A stretch of DNA of 64,000 bases, taken from positions 16,643 to 80,642 of the forward strand of contig JARGGB010000003.1 in the NCBI GenBank assembly GCA_029210815.1. The letters run 5' to 3'. Below the pieces are notes generated by a model. The model was given only the letters and a program-made list of their open reading frames with translations, made no database searches and was not told the DNA's origin. Positions 3,567 through 47,815 of this stretch are shown one piece after another. Numbering within the stretch: the first letter of the stretch is position 1; every line of letters starts with the position of its first letter. The DNA comes from Candidatus Brevefilum sp. GTDB lineage: Bacteria > Chloroflexota > Anaerolineae > Anaerolineales > Anaerolineaceae. Made by a program: the position numbers and the translations under genes.

Positions 3567-5627
3567 TCAGGGTTGGTCCCTGACCCATATGGCATAGGCA
3601 CCTGCGAGGTTTTCGGCAATGGGTTTGCCCTGTACACGGTCCATATCATAAAGCCCCATGGTTTGTTCACGAGTGTGCGCAGTGTACCAGTCAAACATTG
3701 CCCACCATGTGATGCCGCCGATATAACCATTGGGATTAATCTGTTGGTCTGCACCCCAGGCAGCTGATTCCAAAAAGACAGGGAATAAAGCGTCGAATAG
3801 TTCCATCTGACGTTGTTTGCTGCTGTTCCCTCCTTTAGACCATATCCCGTATTCGGTGACCAGGATGGGCTTTTCGGGGAATGCGGCATGTGCCTCCTGT
3901 AAAAAAGTCATTGAATCATCGGCGTAATCTTCACCGTAGAACACACCAAAATACAATGTCCAACCAGCGATGTCCAGCGCGGTCTGTGTTGGGTCGCTGG
4001 ATCCGCCCCGGTCTGCAGCCGCGGATTGCATCAGCAGGCGACCATCTTGCAGATATTGCTCATAATCTTTGGTTAAGCGCTGTATGTATGCCTGCCGCTC
4101 CGGGACAGCCTGGGATTCGTTATGCATGCTCCATAGAATAATGGAGGGGCGGTTGCTGCCCATAAGAACCATTTCACGCCACATCTGGTCGGCGATCTGA
4201 CGCTGCTCCTGAGCAGCAAATTCAGCAGGACCATATTGCCAGACGGGTATCTCCACTGCGGCGAGCAAGCCCAACCGGTCAGTGAGCAGATAGGTGTAGG
4301 GGTGGTTAGGATAATGGGCGGTGCGCACAAAATTCGCATTGTGCGCTTTGATCATTTCCAGGTCGACAAGGATTTTGTCCCATGTGGCAGTACGTCCGCT
4401 GTCAGGCCATTCTTCATGACGGGCAATACCAGCCATGAAATAAGGATCACCATTTAGCAACCATTGATGACCGTTGGATTGCACCGTCCTGATGCCAAAT
4501 TGCGTCATAAAGGAATCGCTGGAATGGTTGGTCTTCAGGCTTGTTTCCAGTAGATAGAGGACAGGGCTTCCTGGGCTCCAAAGTTCGGGTTTGGGTATCG
4601 TGAGCTGAACATCGGGTATGACAAGCGCTTGACCAGGTTCAAGTTTTACCTCCATGCTGATTGGCTTGCCAGCGGCACTGGCTTTTATTGCGCTCGGCTG
4701 CGGGTTTGTCAGCCAGCCGGGTGCGTTTGGATCGGTAGAATGAACCTGCAAGGTGAGGGACCCTTTTTGGGATCGATCCCCGGAATTGTGTAGAACAACA
4801 TCGACCAGGATATCCCCTGATGTGTCAGGAATGCGCACATCTGTGCGCACGATCCACAGCGGTGGGGCAGCTTCCAGGTAAAAATCCTGAATGATGCCGG
4901 TATAGTTCCACCAGTCTGGGGTGAGACCGGGTACGATGTCGTTACGGCTGCCCCAGGGTGGATTATCCACCCGGATAGCGATTTTGTTTTCCTCACCGTA
5001 TATCAGCGATGGGGAGATATCCAAAGCAAAGGGTGTATAGCCGCCTTCGTGATACCCTACCCATTGATCGTTGACCCAAATATCGGCAACATAATTGATG
5101 GCTAAGGCATTAAAAGTCACACGCTGCCCTTTCCATTCAACGGGCACAAACACACTGCGGCGGTACCATACCCCGCCCTGGTAGTCTTCCGGTCCGTATG
5201 CAGTCATGACGTTCTCAGGCTTGGGCAGTTGGATTTCATCCCAATCACTGTCGTCATAATCAGCTTGGAAACGACCCATTGCTTCAGCTTCTAATGCAGT
5301 CAAACCATCACTACCGCGTCCGCTGAGGCTTAAAGAGCTGTCAGCTTCAAAGCGTTCCTTCAGCCAGGTTCCCGCAAGATCAATCCTTTGGCGCTCCTGT
5401 GGGTCGAAGCTTGCCAGGGGGTTACCCGCCTGCCAGGCGATTGGCACCGTTTCACCGTCAAGGGTTTCCGTCTCCTGGAAGCTCAGAGAGGGCAAAAGTG
5501 TATCGCTGTCCACACCTAGCGCAGCAGCACTTACTGATTCGGTTTGGGTGACCTGGTTTGGGGATTGACAACCTGAAAGTATCAACCCGAGACCAATAAC
5601 TATCAGAAACAAGAATTTTGCTTTCAT
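3567..5627 (-). CDS. Secreted lipoprotein glycoside hydrolase family 2 (beta-galactosidase/glucuronidase type)
   Basis: Lipobox LILSGC; GH2 sugar-binding and TIM-barrel motifs; candidate acid/base SMHNES and nucleophile VTEYG. Confidence 0.88.
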   Translation of the reverse strand: MKAKFLFLIVIGLGLILSGCQSPNQVTQTESVSAAALGVDSDTLLPSLSFQETETLDGETVPIAWQAGNPLASFDPQERQRIDLAGTWLKERFEADSSLSLSGRGSDGLTALEAEAMGRFQADYDDSDWDEIQLPKPENVMTAYGPEDYQGGVWYRRSVFVPVEWKGQRVTFNALAINYVADIWVNDQWVGYHEGGYTPFALDISPSLIYGEENKIAIRVDNPPWGSRNDIVPGLTPDWWNYTGIIQDFYLEAAPPLWIVRTDVRIPDTSGDILVDVVLHNSGDRSQKGSLTLQVHSTDPNAPGWLTNPQPSAIKASAAGKPISMEVKLEPGQALVIPDVQLTIPKPELWSPGSPVLYLLETSLKTNHSSDSFMTQFGIRTVQSNGHQWLLNGDPYFMAGIARHEEWPDSGRTATWDKILVDLEMIKAHNANFVRTAHYPNHPYTYLLTDRLGLLAAVEIPVWQYGPAEFAAQEQRQIADQMWREMVLMGSNRPSIILWSMHNESQAVPERQAYIQRLTKDYEQYLQDGRLLMQSAAADRGGSSDPTQTALDIAGWTLYFGVFYGEDYADDSMTFLQEAHAAFPEKPILVTEYGIWSKGGNSSKQRQMELFDALFPVFLESAAWGADQQINPNGYIGGITWWAMFDWYTAHTREQTMGLYDMDRVQGKPIAENLAGAYAIWVRDQP

Positions 5628-5960
5628 GATCGCCTTCTTTATGCAGTGATAATGGAATTGTATTATATATTTGGTTATGAGTAGACGATTTCAGCAATGA
5701 GTACATAATAATTTTGATCTTCAAAATCAATGGCTTTGTTAGTTTCATTACCAATTTAGAGTCCCCAAGTTTTGGAAGTCGTCAAGGCGATTTTTATTCG
5801 TAGTCTGCTGTGCTGATTTTTTACATTAAAATGATGGTATCTATATTACAATTCATATCATAGATTGACGCAAATAATTGATTGGATCAATCTGACCAAT
5901 CCATGATCCTCCAACTAGTTCTCTCTACATTGGTTCAAAATTGAGGAAGGAGTAATTATA

Positions 5961-8582
5961 ATGTTTCGTAAAATAATTATTTTGATCATATTTCTGAGTT
6001 TTACATTACCAATTTCTGCCTGTACGCCAACGGTTGAAGAAACGCCTACTCAGACTGCTGAGAGTGATACTCAAACTGAACCCACTTCAACAGCGACGAT
6101 TTCACCTATCGAAGAAATGCAGCCCGTATACCTGGTCCCTGAAGGTGATCCCAATGAAACTTATATCGCGCCCTTCCCGGTGACTGTCAGTTTGGATGGG
6201 GATTTGAGTGATTGGGAAGGTGTCCCACAGGTATCCATGGGTAATCCGGACAGCACGCAGATCAGCTTTGCTGTGGCTTCTGATGGGGATTTGATTTACT
6301 TCATGGCGGATGTCCTTGATTCAGCAATCATTTCTGGTGAGCATGGCGATCAATATTGGAATGAGGACTCTGTTGAGTTCTATATCAATGGTACAGGTGA
6401 TCTGTCACTGGCTGGATATACTGATGGGGTGGCACAAATCACTGTGCCGCCGCTGAATATTGGGAAGAGCAGCGAGGAAATTATTCTTGCTGGTGTACGA
6501 GTAGAAACCACTGATGCTGAGGTGGTTGTTTCAGAGACTGAACAGGGATATGCTGTGGAGCTCTCTGTACCGGTCTCAAATGATGTTTGGGATATCCCAA
6601 TCGTCCATAACCGAAGCATCGGGTTTAATGTCCATCTTAACGGTTCCAACAGTGGGAGTCGGGATATCAAATTGATCTGGTCGGCAGCCGATCAATCCGA
6701 TCAGTCTTATTTTAACCCAGGTGTTTTTGGACAATTGATCTTTGCAGAAATTGGCAATCAAAACCCCGTAGGACCACAGCCGACTGCCACGCCAGTCCCG
6801 ACTTTAACGCCGTTGCCAGAGGACTCCGTTTATCTTGACCCGAACGCACCCATCGAGGATCGAATTGATAACCTTATCGAGGAGATGAGCATTGAAGAGA
6901 AGATCGGTCAGATGACTTTGGTTGAAAAAGACAGCCTTCCTCTCAAGGATGTTGGCCCCTTTGGGATTGGTGGGGTTCTGAGCGGCGGTGGGGGTTATCC
7001 TGAAACTAACACATCACAGGCATGGGCTGATATGGTGAACGCCTTTCAGAGAGAAGCATTGAACAGCCGTTTGGGAATCCCCATCATTTATGGCGTTGAT
7101 GCTGTTCATGGGCATAACAATGTGAAGGGTGCCACCATCTTTCCACATAATATTGGGTTAGGTGCAGCCAATGACCAGGATTTGATGACCCGCATTGGAC
7201 AGATCACAGCGCAAGAGATGATCGCTACCGGGATTTACTGGAATTATGCACCGGCAGTTTCGATCCCACAGGACATCCGCTGGGGACGAACATACGAGGG
7301 CTACAGCGAGGATGGCGAGATCGTGACCAAGCTTGCCACAGCTTACTTATTGGGTTTGCAGGGGGATGACCTCTCAGATCCATTGACTGTTTTAGCTACC
7401 CCCAAACACTTCTTGGGGGATGGCGGTACAGCCTGGGGCACCTCGAATGTTCCTGGTTATCTCATCGATAGAGGTGATACCCAACTGACCGAAGCGCAAA
7501 TGCGCGAACTGCATCTCTTACCTTATATCAAAGCGATTGAAAATGGCGCGCAATCCATCATGGTTTCCTTTTCCAGCTGGAATGGTGAAAAAATGCACGG
7601 TCAGAAATACTGGATCACAGATGTTCTGAAGGGGGAACTTGGTTTCGACGGCTTCGTAGTCTCAGATTGGGGGGGCGTCGATGAGGTTGATTCGGATTAT
7701 TACATCGCTGTGGTCAATGCAATTAATGCTGGCATTGATATGAATATGGTCCCTTATGATCATGGACGCTTCATCAAAACGATGTTGGAGGCTGTTGTAG
7801 CAGGCGATATTCCCATGACGCGCATCGATGATGCTGTAAGCAGGATCCTGAGAGTAAAATACGCGCTTAATCTGTTTGAACAACCTTATTCAGATCCCTC
7901 TTTACTCAGTTCATTTGGCTCAGATGAGCACCGTGCAATCGCACAGGAGGCTGTTGCGAAATCCCTGGTTCTCCTTAAAGATGAAGGATCGATATTTCCA
8001 ATTTCAAAGGATGTTCCTTATCTTTATATTGGCGGCTCAGCGATGGATGATATCGGCATCCAATCCGGCGGCTGGACCATCACCTGGCAGGGTGAAGCGG
8101 GTGATATCACGCCAGGAACAACGATCCTGGAAGCAATTGAAAACACAGTTTCGGAGGAAACACAATTAGTAATTAATCAAGCTGGCCAATTTCCTGAAAC
8201 AGAGGAGGAGCGGCCCAGCCTGTGTCTGGCAGTTGTTGGTGAAACACCTTATGCGGAAGGTGTGGGCGATAATGAAAACCCGACGGTTTCTCTTGCTGAT
8301 AAAAGAGCCTTAAACAACATGGAAGAGTCATGTGATAAGATGGCAGTCATCCTTATTAGCGGCCGCCCATTAATCATCAATGACAGAATTGACAACTGGG
8401 ACGCCCTGGTTGCCGCCTGGCTGCCTGGAACTGAGGGACAGGGTGTAGCAGATGTCATTTTTGGCGATGTGCCTTTCACAGGAAAATTATCCTTCACCTG
8501 GCCAGTGAGCACCGAGCAGTTGCCGATGGGGAGCGGCGATAGTGATCCTCTCTTCCCCATTGGTTTTGGCTTGGTTGAGTGA
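5961..8582 (+). CDS. Secreted lipoprotein glycoside hydrolase family 3 (beta-glucosidase type) with N-terminal CBM9-like domain
   Basis: Lipobox PISAC; DGDLSDWEGVPQ (CBM9-like); EKIGQMTLVEK; catalytic-type VSDWGGVDEV; KHFLGDGGT. Confidence 0.9.
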   Translation: MFRKIIILIIFLSFTLPISACTPTVEETPTQTAESDTQTEPTSTATISPIEEMQPVYLVPEGDPNETYIAPFPVTVSLDGDLSDWEGVPQVSMGNPDSTQISFAVASDGDLIYFMADVLDSAIISGEHGDQYWNEDSVEFYINGTGDLSLAGYTDGVAQITVPPLNIGKSSEEIILAGVRVETTDAEVVVSETEQGYAVELSVPVSNDVWDIPIVHNRSIGFNVHLNGSNSGSRDIKLIWSAADQSDQSYFNPGVFGQLIFAEIGNQNPVGPQPTATPVPTLTPLPEDSVYLDPNAPIEDRIDNLIEEMSIEEKIGQMTLVEKDSLPLKDVGPFGIGGVLSGGGGYPETNTSQAWADMVNAFQREALNSRLGIPIIYGVDAVHGHNNVKGATIFPHNIGLGAANDQDLMTRIGQITAQEMIATGIYWNYAPAVSIPQDIRWGRTYEGYSEDGEIVTKLATAYLLGLQGDDLSDPLTVLATPKHFLGDGGTAWGTSNVPGYLIDRGDTQLTEAQMRELHLLPYIKAIENGAQSIMVSFSSWNGEKMHGQKYWITDVLKGELGFDGFVVSDWGGVDEVDSDYYIAVVNAINAGIDMNMVPYDHGRFIKTMLEAVVAGDIPMTRIDDAVSRILRVKYALNLFEQPYSDPSLLSSFGSDEHRAIAQEAVAKSLVLLKDEGSIFPISKDVPYLYIGGSAMDDIGIQSGGWTITWQGEAGDITPGTTILEAIENTVSEETQLVINQAGQFPETEEERPSLCLAVVGETPYAEGVGDNENPTVSLADKRALNNMEESCDKMAVILISGRPLIINDRIDNWDALVAAWLPGTEGQGVADVIFGDVPFTGKLSFTWPVSTEQLPMGSGDSDPLFPIGFGLVE

Positions 8583-11700: not shown

Positions 11701-12076
11701 TATCGAGACATTGTTCACAAACATTCCCGCTGGGATGACCATGCTTTTTTACCTTCTCTAATAGGTCATGAATTTCTGAGACATCTATGGAGATATTATC
11801 TCCTGGTGTCAACTGCAAGGATTCGCGACTTACTTCCAGCCCATTTTCTCCCAGAGAGCATTGAATATCCCAGATCGCCTGTCGAAGGTTGGCCAATGCT
11901 CTGGTTTGGGTATTTTCCGGCCAAAACATCGTTGCCAGGAATTCTCGTGAAGAACGTTCACCAGAGACAGCAAGAAAAACCAGCAGAGCTAAGGCTTTAT
12001 AGCGAGAAAAATTGATGGTTTCTCCTCCTAGCTCAACCCGGATACCCCCTAAGGTATTAATTCGCAATCTCTTCAT
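8750..12076 (-). CDS. SARP/AfsR-like transcriptional regulator: winged-helix + BTAD + NB-ARC/AAA ATPase + TPR
   Basis: N-terminal LRINTLGGIRVELGGE plus BTAD region (LDELNENAHRALMRLYSAKGQRNAAIRQYLSC); Walker A LAPGGMGKSRLAIEIARKL; VLDNLEHL; C-terminal TPR-like repeats. Confidence 0.88.
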   Translation of the reverse strand: MKRLRINTLGGIRVELGGETINFSRYKALALLVFLAVSGERSSREFLATMFWPENTQTRALANLRQAIWDIQCSLGENGLEVSRESLQLTPGDNISIDVSEIHDLLEKVKKHGHPSGNVCEQCLDNLKQASLLFNGDFLAGFNLKDSPEFDNWQYFQKEELNREISGVYNQLVDWYSEKQDFDQAIYFARRWLQLDELNENAHRALMRLYSAKGQRNAAIRQYLSCVGLLEQQLKISPEGITTELYEMIRSGTLELKTEPKESQPLTRSKLPAQVTPFVGRIDEVARLSQLLLGADTRLLTILAPGGMGKSRLAIEIARKLMSHFSDGILFVPLAPLETSEMFISYFANAIGYLRVGGQPLNQQLMDYFQEKSMLLVLDNLEHLTTMSDWIRDLLAISPNLKILATSRIPLNIKAEARFHLKGLNFPEEGTTEDFSTFSAVKLFLRSSQRVKPLFIPAMDDWQYIGEICRLVEGMPLAIEMAASWMEMLSLSEIVKEIRRGLAFFETDFCDIPARQRSLYAVFDYSWKKIDKKEREQFSQLTIFRGGFTREAAERIVGISLRQLVKFVNRSILNRTPEDRFEIHELLRQYGFEKLQANLVSYQNLITRYAEYYSRKMGGWQEDLKTGKLRQAMIKISDDFENIRHAWEVALHFERLDLIETSLGGLILYFDYSFRDDEGLALFEMAAKNISDETRQGVRILSLLTGYLVWLNLSLGNYEQGEKKFRESLTLMHRVEPIQTREEKYAQAFHLFLKGIYNRFHGDLSVFKKLFLQSINLFEELGENWWCELIYRFLGNAAWTGKMASDTIDVYYQKALKIARTLNDHYGMARTLEMLGVFCAYSKGDLEKAESYFRESSRIFLELDDGYSYIRYNICLEQIANINGRFQEVLELRQKRLHFLEKSGDPASISVVYMELGETYHHIGDYASAEKNGWKAVMGKGGLKDFEVRSRWFLGLTLIAKKDYQQANHLLSEAMKITCELTEEPELAGSLAALTRIEIANGNDQVAERLLIEGLEEAITAGFPFNMLYILASAALFLAVRGNTEKALEVYSLINSWQFVSNSVWFSDVYKKPLLSLIDTEDIIVKERQPKDTLWKMAELLLAELKQA

Positions 12077-12082
12077 GTGGAA

Positions 12083-12133
12083 ATTATACCGCGCAGTTTA
12101 ATATGAGACGTTCTTGAGACGATTTTTGAAACG
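12083..12133 (-). promoter_or_regulatory. Promoter of the SARP-like gene with heptamer direct repeats
   Basis: On the minus strand: CGTTTCA-N5-CGTCTCA-N4-CGTCTCA-N15-TATAAT-N6-ATG. On the + strand: TGAGACG at 12104 and 12115, TGAAACG at 12127. Confidence 0.6.
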
Positions 12134-12278
12134 AAAAAATTACGCACCATCCATATACTGTAAGCAAATAAGAATATAAGGAGGTAGTGATGCTTACTCA
12201 ATAAAGAACCATAATCCTTTGGTATCGCCTTGATCGAAATGGTAATAACTCAAATTAATTAGAAATCGGAGCAAAATC

Positions 12279-12785
12279 ATGATTAAGAAAACTAGTAAAT
12301 ACCTAATATTTTCAGGAGCACTGCTAATGTTTTCACTCTTGCTGATTTCGAGCCAATCAATGATAGCCTCCGCTGAAGAATATAAGCAGGCGAGTGAATC
12401 TCTAGGAGAATTGAGAGTGGATGATCCAACTGAAGCAGAGGTGATGTTGGATGCCTACTCACCTGGGATCGAAATGCGTCGAACATGGTTGGAATCAAGA
12501 TCTTTTTTGACTGTTTATACAGTTAGAAGTGATCGGCCAGCCTGGGTTGTCTTCCGTGCAGATGAGGATGGTTTACCCGGTGCAATTCTCCACTACATCT
12601 TTGTTGGAAGTGGAACCCACACAATTGCCAGAGTTGAAGACGCTCCAGCAATTAGTTCAGAACAAATTCATGTTATGCTGCATGAAGACTTTGGCAGGTC
12701 AAGTGTGTTTGAGTTCCCCGGCCCGGATGGACCAGTATACGTAGATAATAAGGTCGTCGATTTGCTTTGTTGCGGTCCCTATTAA
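12279..12785 (+). CDS. Secreted protein of unknown function (168 aa; possibly DUF7282-like)
   Basis: Signal peptide-like N-terminus; DRPAWVVFRADEDGLPGAILHYIFVGSGTHT. Confidence 0.7.
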   Translation: MIKKTSKYLIFSGALLMFSLLLISSQSMIASAEEYKQASESLGELRVDDPTEAEVMLDAYSPGIEMRRTWLESRSFLTVYTVRSDRPAWVVFRADEDGLPGAILHYIFVGSGTHTIARVEDAPAISSEQIHVMLHEDFGRSSVFEFPGPDGPVYVDNKVVDLLCCGPY

Positions 12786-46602: not shown

Positions 46603-47815
46603 ACCAGAGGTTCTTGGAATTATCCCAGCCAGGGGTGGATCAAAAGGGATTCCACGCAAGAATATCCGAGATTTTGCCGGCTATCCCTTGATTGCGTATA
46701 GTATTGCGGCAGGACTGCAGTCCGAACACATCACCCGTTTAATTGTTACAACGGATGACCCTGAAATTGCTGAAATCGCACGATCCTTTGGTGCAGAAGT
46801 GCCATTTATACGCCCAAAATCCCTGGCACAGGATGACACCCTGGATTTGCCTGTTTTTCAACACGCCCTGAATTGGCTTGCAGAAGCGGAAGGATATCGA
46901 CCAGAGCTGGTTGTTCACCTTCGGCCGACTTCTCCCGTGCGGCCGGTTGGACTGGTTGACGAATCAATTGAGATCTTATTGGCGCATCCAGAAGCGGACT
47001 CAGTGCGGGGGATTGTCCCTGCAGGGCAGAACCCATATAAGATGTGGAAAATTAACGGCAATGGTCAGATGACCCCACTGCTTACGGTTGAGGGCATGGA
47101 TGAGCCTTATAATTCACCCCGCCAGTCTTTGCCAAAAGTTTACTGGCATACAGGAATTATTGATGTAATCCACCCCCGGGTAATTCTGGAAAAATCCTCA
47201 ATGAGCGGCGATCTGATTTTACCGGTCCATGTTGACCCGGTTTTTTCAGTGGATATTGATACACCCCTGGATTGGGCGCATTGTGAAAGCCTTATACGAG
47301 AACGAGATTTAGAGATGGTCTATCCCGGGAAACCTTTGCGGAAGTGGCCAGAGAAAGTTTCACTCGTAGTATTTGATTTTGACGGCGTTATGACGGATGA
47401 CAGGGTATGGGTGGACCAGGATGGGATTGAAAGTGTGGCTGCCAAACGCGGTGACGGCATGGGTATTGAACTCCTCTTAAAAGCGGGCTTCAATGCGGTT
47501 ATCATCTCGACTGAACCCAACCCGGTTGTTGCTGCACGAGCGAAAAAAATTGGATTACCTTATTTTCATGGTGTGGGTGACAAAACTAAGACACTGCAGG
47601 CTTACTGGGAGAAAGAAAATCTTTCCCCGGAAGAAACAATTTATCTAGGCAACGATATTAATGACGTGCCTTGTTTCCCACTGGTTGCCTTTGCTGCGGT
47701 CGTTGCCGATGCTCATCCTGATGCGCGCCGAAAAGCAGACATTGTTCTTAAGCGAAAGGGCGGGCACGGCGCAGTGCGGGAACTTTGTGATCTTTTGATA
47801 AACCGATATCGATAA
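46592..47815 (+). CDS. neuA: Bifunctional acylneuraminate cytidylyltransferase (NeuA) - HAD phosphatase (KdsC-like) fusion
   Basis: LGIIPARGGSKGIPRKNIRDFAGYPLIAYSI; C-terminal VVFDFDGVMTDD and YLGNDINDVPCF. Confidence 0.9.
   Translation: MATKPEVLGIIPARGGSKGIPRKNIRDFAGYPLIAYSIAAGLQSEHITRLIVTTDDPEIAEIARSFGAEVPFIRPKSLAQDDTLDLPVFQHALNWLAEAEGYRPELVVHLRPTSPVRPVGLVDESIEILLAHPEADSVRGIVPAGQNPYKMWKINGNGQMTPLLTVEGMDEPYNSPRQSLPKVYWHTGIIDVIHPRVILEKSSMSGDLILPVHVDPVFSVDIDTPLDWAHCESLIRERDLEMVYPGKPLRKWPEKVSLVVFDFDGVMTDDRVWVDQDGIESVAAKRGDGMGIELLLKAGFNAVIISTEPNPVVAARAKKIGLPYFHGVGDKTKTLQAYWEKENLSPEETIYLGNDINDVPCFPLVAFAAVVADAHPDARRKADIVLKRKGGHGAVRELCDLLINRYR

Follow-up and report, generated by a model that had tools for sequence, protein, structure and literature searches.

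Three direct heptamer repeats upstream of a gene for a SARP-STAND regulator of Candidatus Brevefilum sp. are very probably a docking site for the regulator's own protein, a prediction made because dozens of related regulators share the repeat type and its position, and the letters of their repeats vary with each regulator's own recognition helix. In our view the triplet likely serves as operator for the regulator gene downstream of it, and there the SARP would recruit RNA polymerase in positive autoregulation. In the window, that is, the whole analysed stretch of 64,000 nucleotides, the minus strand from 12133 to 12083 reads CGTTTCA-AAAAT-CGTCTCA-AGAA-CGTCTCA-N15-TATAAT, followed by TTCCAC (N6) and the ATG at 12076. 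These letters are as the original prediction had given them, and so are the copy-to-copy steps (12 bp from the first to the second and 11 bp from the second to the third) and the ATG, which starts at the seventh base after the −10 element. Its placement of the proximal heptamer at −35 holds for most of that position, with promoter coordinates assuming TATAAT at −12 to −7 (Table 1); the best −35 match at a spacer of 16–18 bp reaches only 2/6. Direct heptamer repeats spaced by one helical turn and overlapping −35, as expected of a SARP site, were found both in the window and family-wide.

Table 1. Features of the regulator locus, in window coordinates
Feature	Position	Strand	Remark
SARP-STAND regulator, 1108 aa	8750..12076	-	N-terminal winged helix, BTAD, P-loop ATPase, TPRs
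−10 element TATAAT	12083..12088	-	sequence read; without a good −35
Heptamer copy 3, CGTCTCA, proximal	12104..12110	-	about −34 to −28, over the −35 position
Heptamer copy 2, CGTCTCA	12115..12121	-	about −45 to −39
Heptamer copy 1, CGTTTCA, distal	12127..12133	-	about −57 to −51
Divergent gene, 168 aa exported protein with DUF7282	12279..12785	+	possible second operator target

SARPs have been studied as antibiotic switches of Streptomyces, and the library searched yielded no literature on SARP sites in Chloroflexota. The regulator has the order of a large SARP: an N-terminal OmpR-type winged helix is followed by a BTAD domain (PF03704, residues 117–250, E=5e-15), the winged helix resting on the alignment of residues 4–142 to AfsR in 8HVR (E=0.003), as Trans_reg_C was unreported by Pfam. 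A central STAND/NOD ATPase with the P-loop APGGMGKS and C-terminal TPRs (TPR_12, E=4e-14) come next, with NB-ARC itself unreported by Pfam. The NCBIfam AfsR model aligns to residues 3–335 with E=4e-20, far below its curated cut-off. The recognition helix reads LRQAIWDIQ and includes Q66 and W69. A single-sequence AlphaFold model of residues 1–249 was poor (pLDDT 44) and was left unused. The UppS protein encoded elsewhere in the window has its best matches in Chloroflexi/Anaerolineales assemblies (65–66%), and on this ground the host was assigned to the Chloroflexota.

To begin with the genome itself, first-order shuffling of the 100 bp upstream produced a heptamer triplet of this quality, allowing any heptamer, in 8 of 20,000 trials. 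The perfect heptamer pair is found at one place only in the genome of 2.66 Mb, where the search for TGAGACG-N4-TGAGACG proposed with the original prediction matches the window copy alone and the pattern CGTYTCA-N3..6-CGTYTCA finds this triplet only. Sites with two mismatches are no commoner in the genome than those of a reversed-pattern control, and a relaxed CGTYTCN scan of six genomes gave mostly background, with counts in the larger genomes at the level of the control. Other pairs in the window, at 47395 and 33121 (minus), lie inside genes and were taken as chance. The regulator is adjoined by GH2 and GH3 (with CBM9) glycoside hydrolase genes at window 3567–8582, and the heptamer pair is absent from their promoters.

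No close orthologue of the regulator was found in the genus, and a contig pattern search for orthologues was also empty; its best relatives share 30–48% identity in the DBD and BTAD part. The upstream regions of 172 BTAD-STAND homologues, reduced to 129 by clustering at 60% identity, were therefore the first set in which repeats were counted. Within 130 bp, heptamer pairs matching at 6/7 positions or more had a spacing of 11 bp in 78 of the 129 and of 12 bp in 42, while almost every other spacing between 8 and 40 bp gave 9 to 24 sequences (about 16); the 23-bp spacing, the sum of 11 and 12, gave 33. For perfect pairs the counts were 33 (11 bp) and 21 (12 bp) versus about 2–3 elsewhere, and the 11/12-bp excess is limited to about 180 bp before the regulator start. 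Pairs of the form CGTnnnn-CGTnnnn, in which the constancy of CGT is partly due to site-calling and bases 4–7 are free, precede 58/129 homologues versus 0/29 TetR and 0/28 OmpR-type promoters, and shuffles gave 0.48 versus the 58 observed. About half of the homologues are without a strict site. A hold-out of 38 homologues across the phylum, none more than 60% identical to the first set, carried 11-bp pairs in 22 and CGT pairs in 14 (Fisher p=5e-7 versus controls). The enrichment of CGT-start repeats at 11/12 bp, both order-wide and in the phylum-wide hold-out, bears out the conservation that was to be expected of a genuine site. A chance repeat could be entertained for a motif this short, and the single promoter alone is weak; with both the rarity in shuffles and the family-wide enrichment, chance is refuted for the family and is hardly credible for the triplet itself.

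The distance from the heptamers to the −10 element is variable, at 6–87 bp in the family. Only 14/48 lie at 14–19 bp, a modest excess over the 5 expected (maximum 11 in 500 shuffles), and a fixed distance was consequently rejected. In a usual Streptomyces SARP promoter the 3′ repeat lies 8 bp from the −10 (PMC10936776); here the distance is 15 bp.

The letters of the heptamer co-vary with the recognition helix. Among 100 DBD columns, residue 66, which aligns with AfsR T88, is the best predictor of heptamer base 4 (z 14), R going with T in 21/23 and Q with C in 22/27, and at residue 69 W goes with T at base 5 in 13/17 and S with A in 27/31. In the cryo-EM structure, AfsR T88 contacts the afs box (PMC10936776). 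Whole helices pair with sites in the same manner: ALRRTLSxL with CGTTACG, YLRRTLWEL with CGTTTCG/C, NLRQTLSxLRK with CGTCAAA-like sites, NLRYALADLR with CGTGGGG, NLRVxLxxLR with CGTTCAG, and the LRQAIWDI of the window with CGTCTCA. Three of the four helices nearest to that of the window (L126, L088 and L116) carry CGTCTCA/G, with the rest of their DBD 32–41% identical. Once similarity over the remaining DBD was removed, helix similarity still predicted site similarity (partial r 0.33, 0/2000 permutations, the permutation ignoring phylogeny), and nearest neighbours chosen by helix gave only a slight gain over those chosen by the remainder of the domain (0.69 vs 0.63). A one-residue rule derived from the first set predicted base 4 in 8/15 of the hold-out (p=0.09, not significant) and gave no gain for base 5 there, which argues that the putative code either goes beyond single residues or is tied to lineages.

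These data also bear on whether an OmpR/PhoB-type response regulator or some other common factor binds the 11-bp repeats, a reading we regard as very unlikely. PhoB/OmpR-type boxes resemble the triplet as 7-bp direct repeats with spacers of about 4 bp, bound by winged-helix dimers near −35; binding of such regulators to 7-bp repeats separated by 4 bp is described (PMC4832192), as is a site common to AfsR and PhoP (PMC10972967). The window regulator differs in having no receiver domain, and the CGT core was absent upstream of the tested OmpR-type genes. Moreover, paralogues of the same genome differ in bases 4–7 in a manner that fits each regulator's helix, as in G211 with CGTTACG, CGTTTCG and CGTTCAG, which argues that each protein reads its own promoter rather than that a shared factor does. 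In the genome of the window, the BTAD-STAND paralogues L010 and L011 carry upstream CGTGGGG/CGTTAGG-type heptamers at 11 bp, unlike the CGTCTCA of the window. The OmpR-type promoters (L355–L384) were themselves mildly enriched in 11-bp heptamer pairs (11/28), which lacked the CGT core; this suggests autoregulation by their own products.

For the preferred reading, that the regulator binds its own operator, AfsR of Streptomyces coelicolor is among the closest known systems. Both proteins have the SARP, NOD/STAND and TPR architecture, and the afs box likewise consists of 11-bp direct repeats that start with CGTT over the −35 region (PMC10936776, PMC10972967), its polarity toward the activated promoter being the same as the strand bias of the family heptamers (PMC10936776). 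The AfsR SARP dimer sits over −35 in contact with sigma R4, and ATP relieves it of inhibition by its NOD/TPR part (PMC10936776). The systems differ in that the studied target of AfsR is afsS and not afsR itself, and in that the AfsR box lies at −40 to −19 and the window repeats at about −57 to −28. Further, AfsR R92 contacts T at position 3 and its aligned residue in the window is D70, while the conserved Arg of the window family aligns with AfsR R87, not R92. By analogy, two or three winged-helix/BTAD (SARP) parts would bind side by side on one DNA face, one per heptamer, with the constant CGT as family-wide core and bases 4–7 (CTCA in the window) read by the regulator's own recognition helix through Q66 and W69. 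The promoter has a good −10 and lacks a −35 element, and SARP domains bound over the −35 position would most likely recruit RNA polymerase via sigma region 4, as AfsR does; the outcome would be positive autoregulation with the STAND ATPase/TPR part as its switch. We infer binding, activation and the ATP switch, and an AfsR-like sigma R4 contact and release by ATP from the NOD/TPR part may be expected on the same comparison.

A protein lying over −35 could also block RNA polymerase, and we see negative autoregulation as possible, though improbable. Copy 3 overlaps the −35 position next to a strong TATAAT, and a self-limiting switch could do without further targets in a genome with no other exact site; on the other side, SARPs act as activators in the mechanism characterised so far (PMC10936776), a review gives one negative case, Atr32 (PMC10972967), and many family sites lie upstream of −35. 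The autoregulation by a SARP that was originally proposed is hence upheld as to a self-recognised operator, through the family repeats, the hold-out and the helix co-variation, with the positive sign of control as a prediction. A poor −35 was considered as a sign of activation and found non-discriminating, because the few controls examined also have poor −35s, and it is therefore no proof of activator dependence. A leaderless transcript would fit the regulator's layout; as support for the SARP idea this was rejected, because the −10 ends 4–9 nt before the start in 8/29 TetR control genes of the same genomes, marking the layout as a lineage habit.

The site may also serve the divergent gene. 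By longest-ORF estimate, a divergent upstream neighbour was found for 22/24 homologues with a site versus 20/36 without one and 7/26 TetR genes, and the neighbours of site-bearing members often look like exported, membrane or cytochrome c proteins. As divergent neighbours are typical at the sites, it is plausible that the operator controls both genes. Among known operators, those of the SARP-LAL regulators PimR, SanG and PolR are alike in having 2 or 3 heptamers with 4-bp spacers beside or between regulator genes and differ in their consensus CGGCAAG; the PimR site controls pimM, with PimR bound beside its own gene without autoregulation (PMC3367932), and a SARP-adjacent site thus need not mean autoregulation. 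That the bound SARP serves mainly the divergent exported-protein gene, in the manner of PimR and with little or no autoregulation, nevertheless seems rather unlikely to us: the heptamers are on the regulator's strand in 72 cases and on the opposite one only in 3, they lie 37–123 bp from the regulator start with a distance to the divergent start that varies from about 17 to 330 bp, and the proximal copy in the window overlaps the regulator's own −35.

Exact CGTTACG or CGTCAAA pairs number 0–6 per genome, and 17/37 are at the regulator's own gene, the remainder being near unrelated genes; for the window operator, the self site is alone in its genome. We give an even chance to the wider proposal that Chloroflexota have many SARP-STAND regulators and that each of them has, at its own gene, a private CGTnnnn operator that insulates it from its paralogues and in which bases 4–7 co-evolve with the helix, so that a SARP code would be readable from genomes and many of these regulators would control little beyond themselves and a divergent exported protein. 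If true, many uncharacterised regulators of uncultured bacteria would carry a readable operator, making their targets predictable from sequence, and the heptamer–helix code would be open to testing with purified domains.

Several observations concern individual loci. Regulators of the CGTTACG class had recurrent divergent partners, three (L078, L084 and L089) a similar small membrane protein and three (L046, L048 and L096) a membrane-anchored cytochrome c-like protein. Guessing by no more than their initial residues, the genes downstream of exact CGTTACG pairs at L235, L236, L239 and L246 resemble those for an ABC permease, an acetyl-CoA synthetase, an MsrP-like protein and a benzoyl-CoA reductase/dehydratase subunit. 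On the plus strand at window 12178–12204, the divergent DUF7282 gene has a leader in which AAGGAGG is followed by the short frame ATG CTT ACT CAA TAA, which could be a leader mini-ORF.
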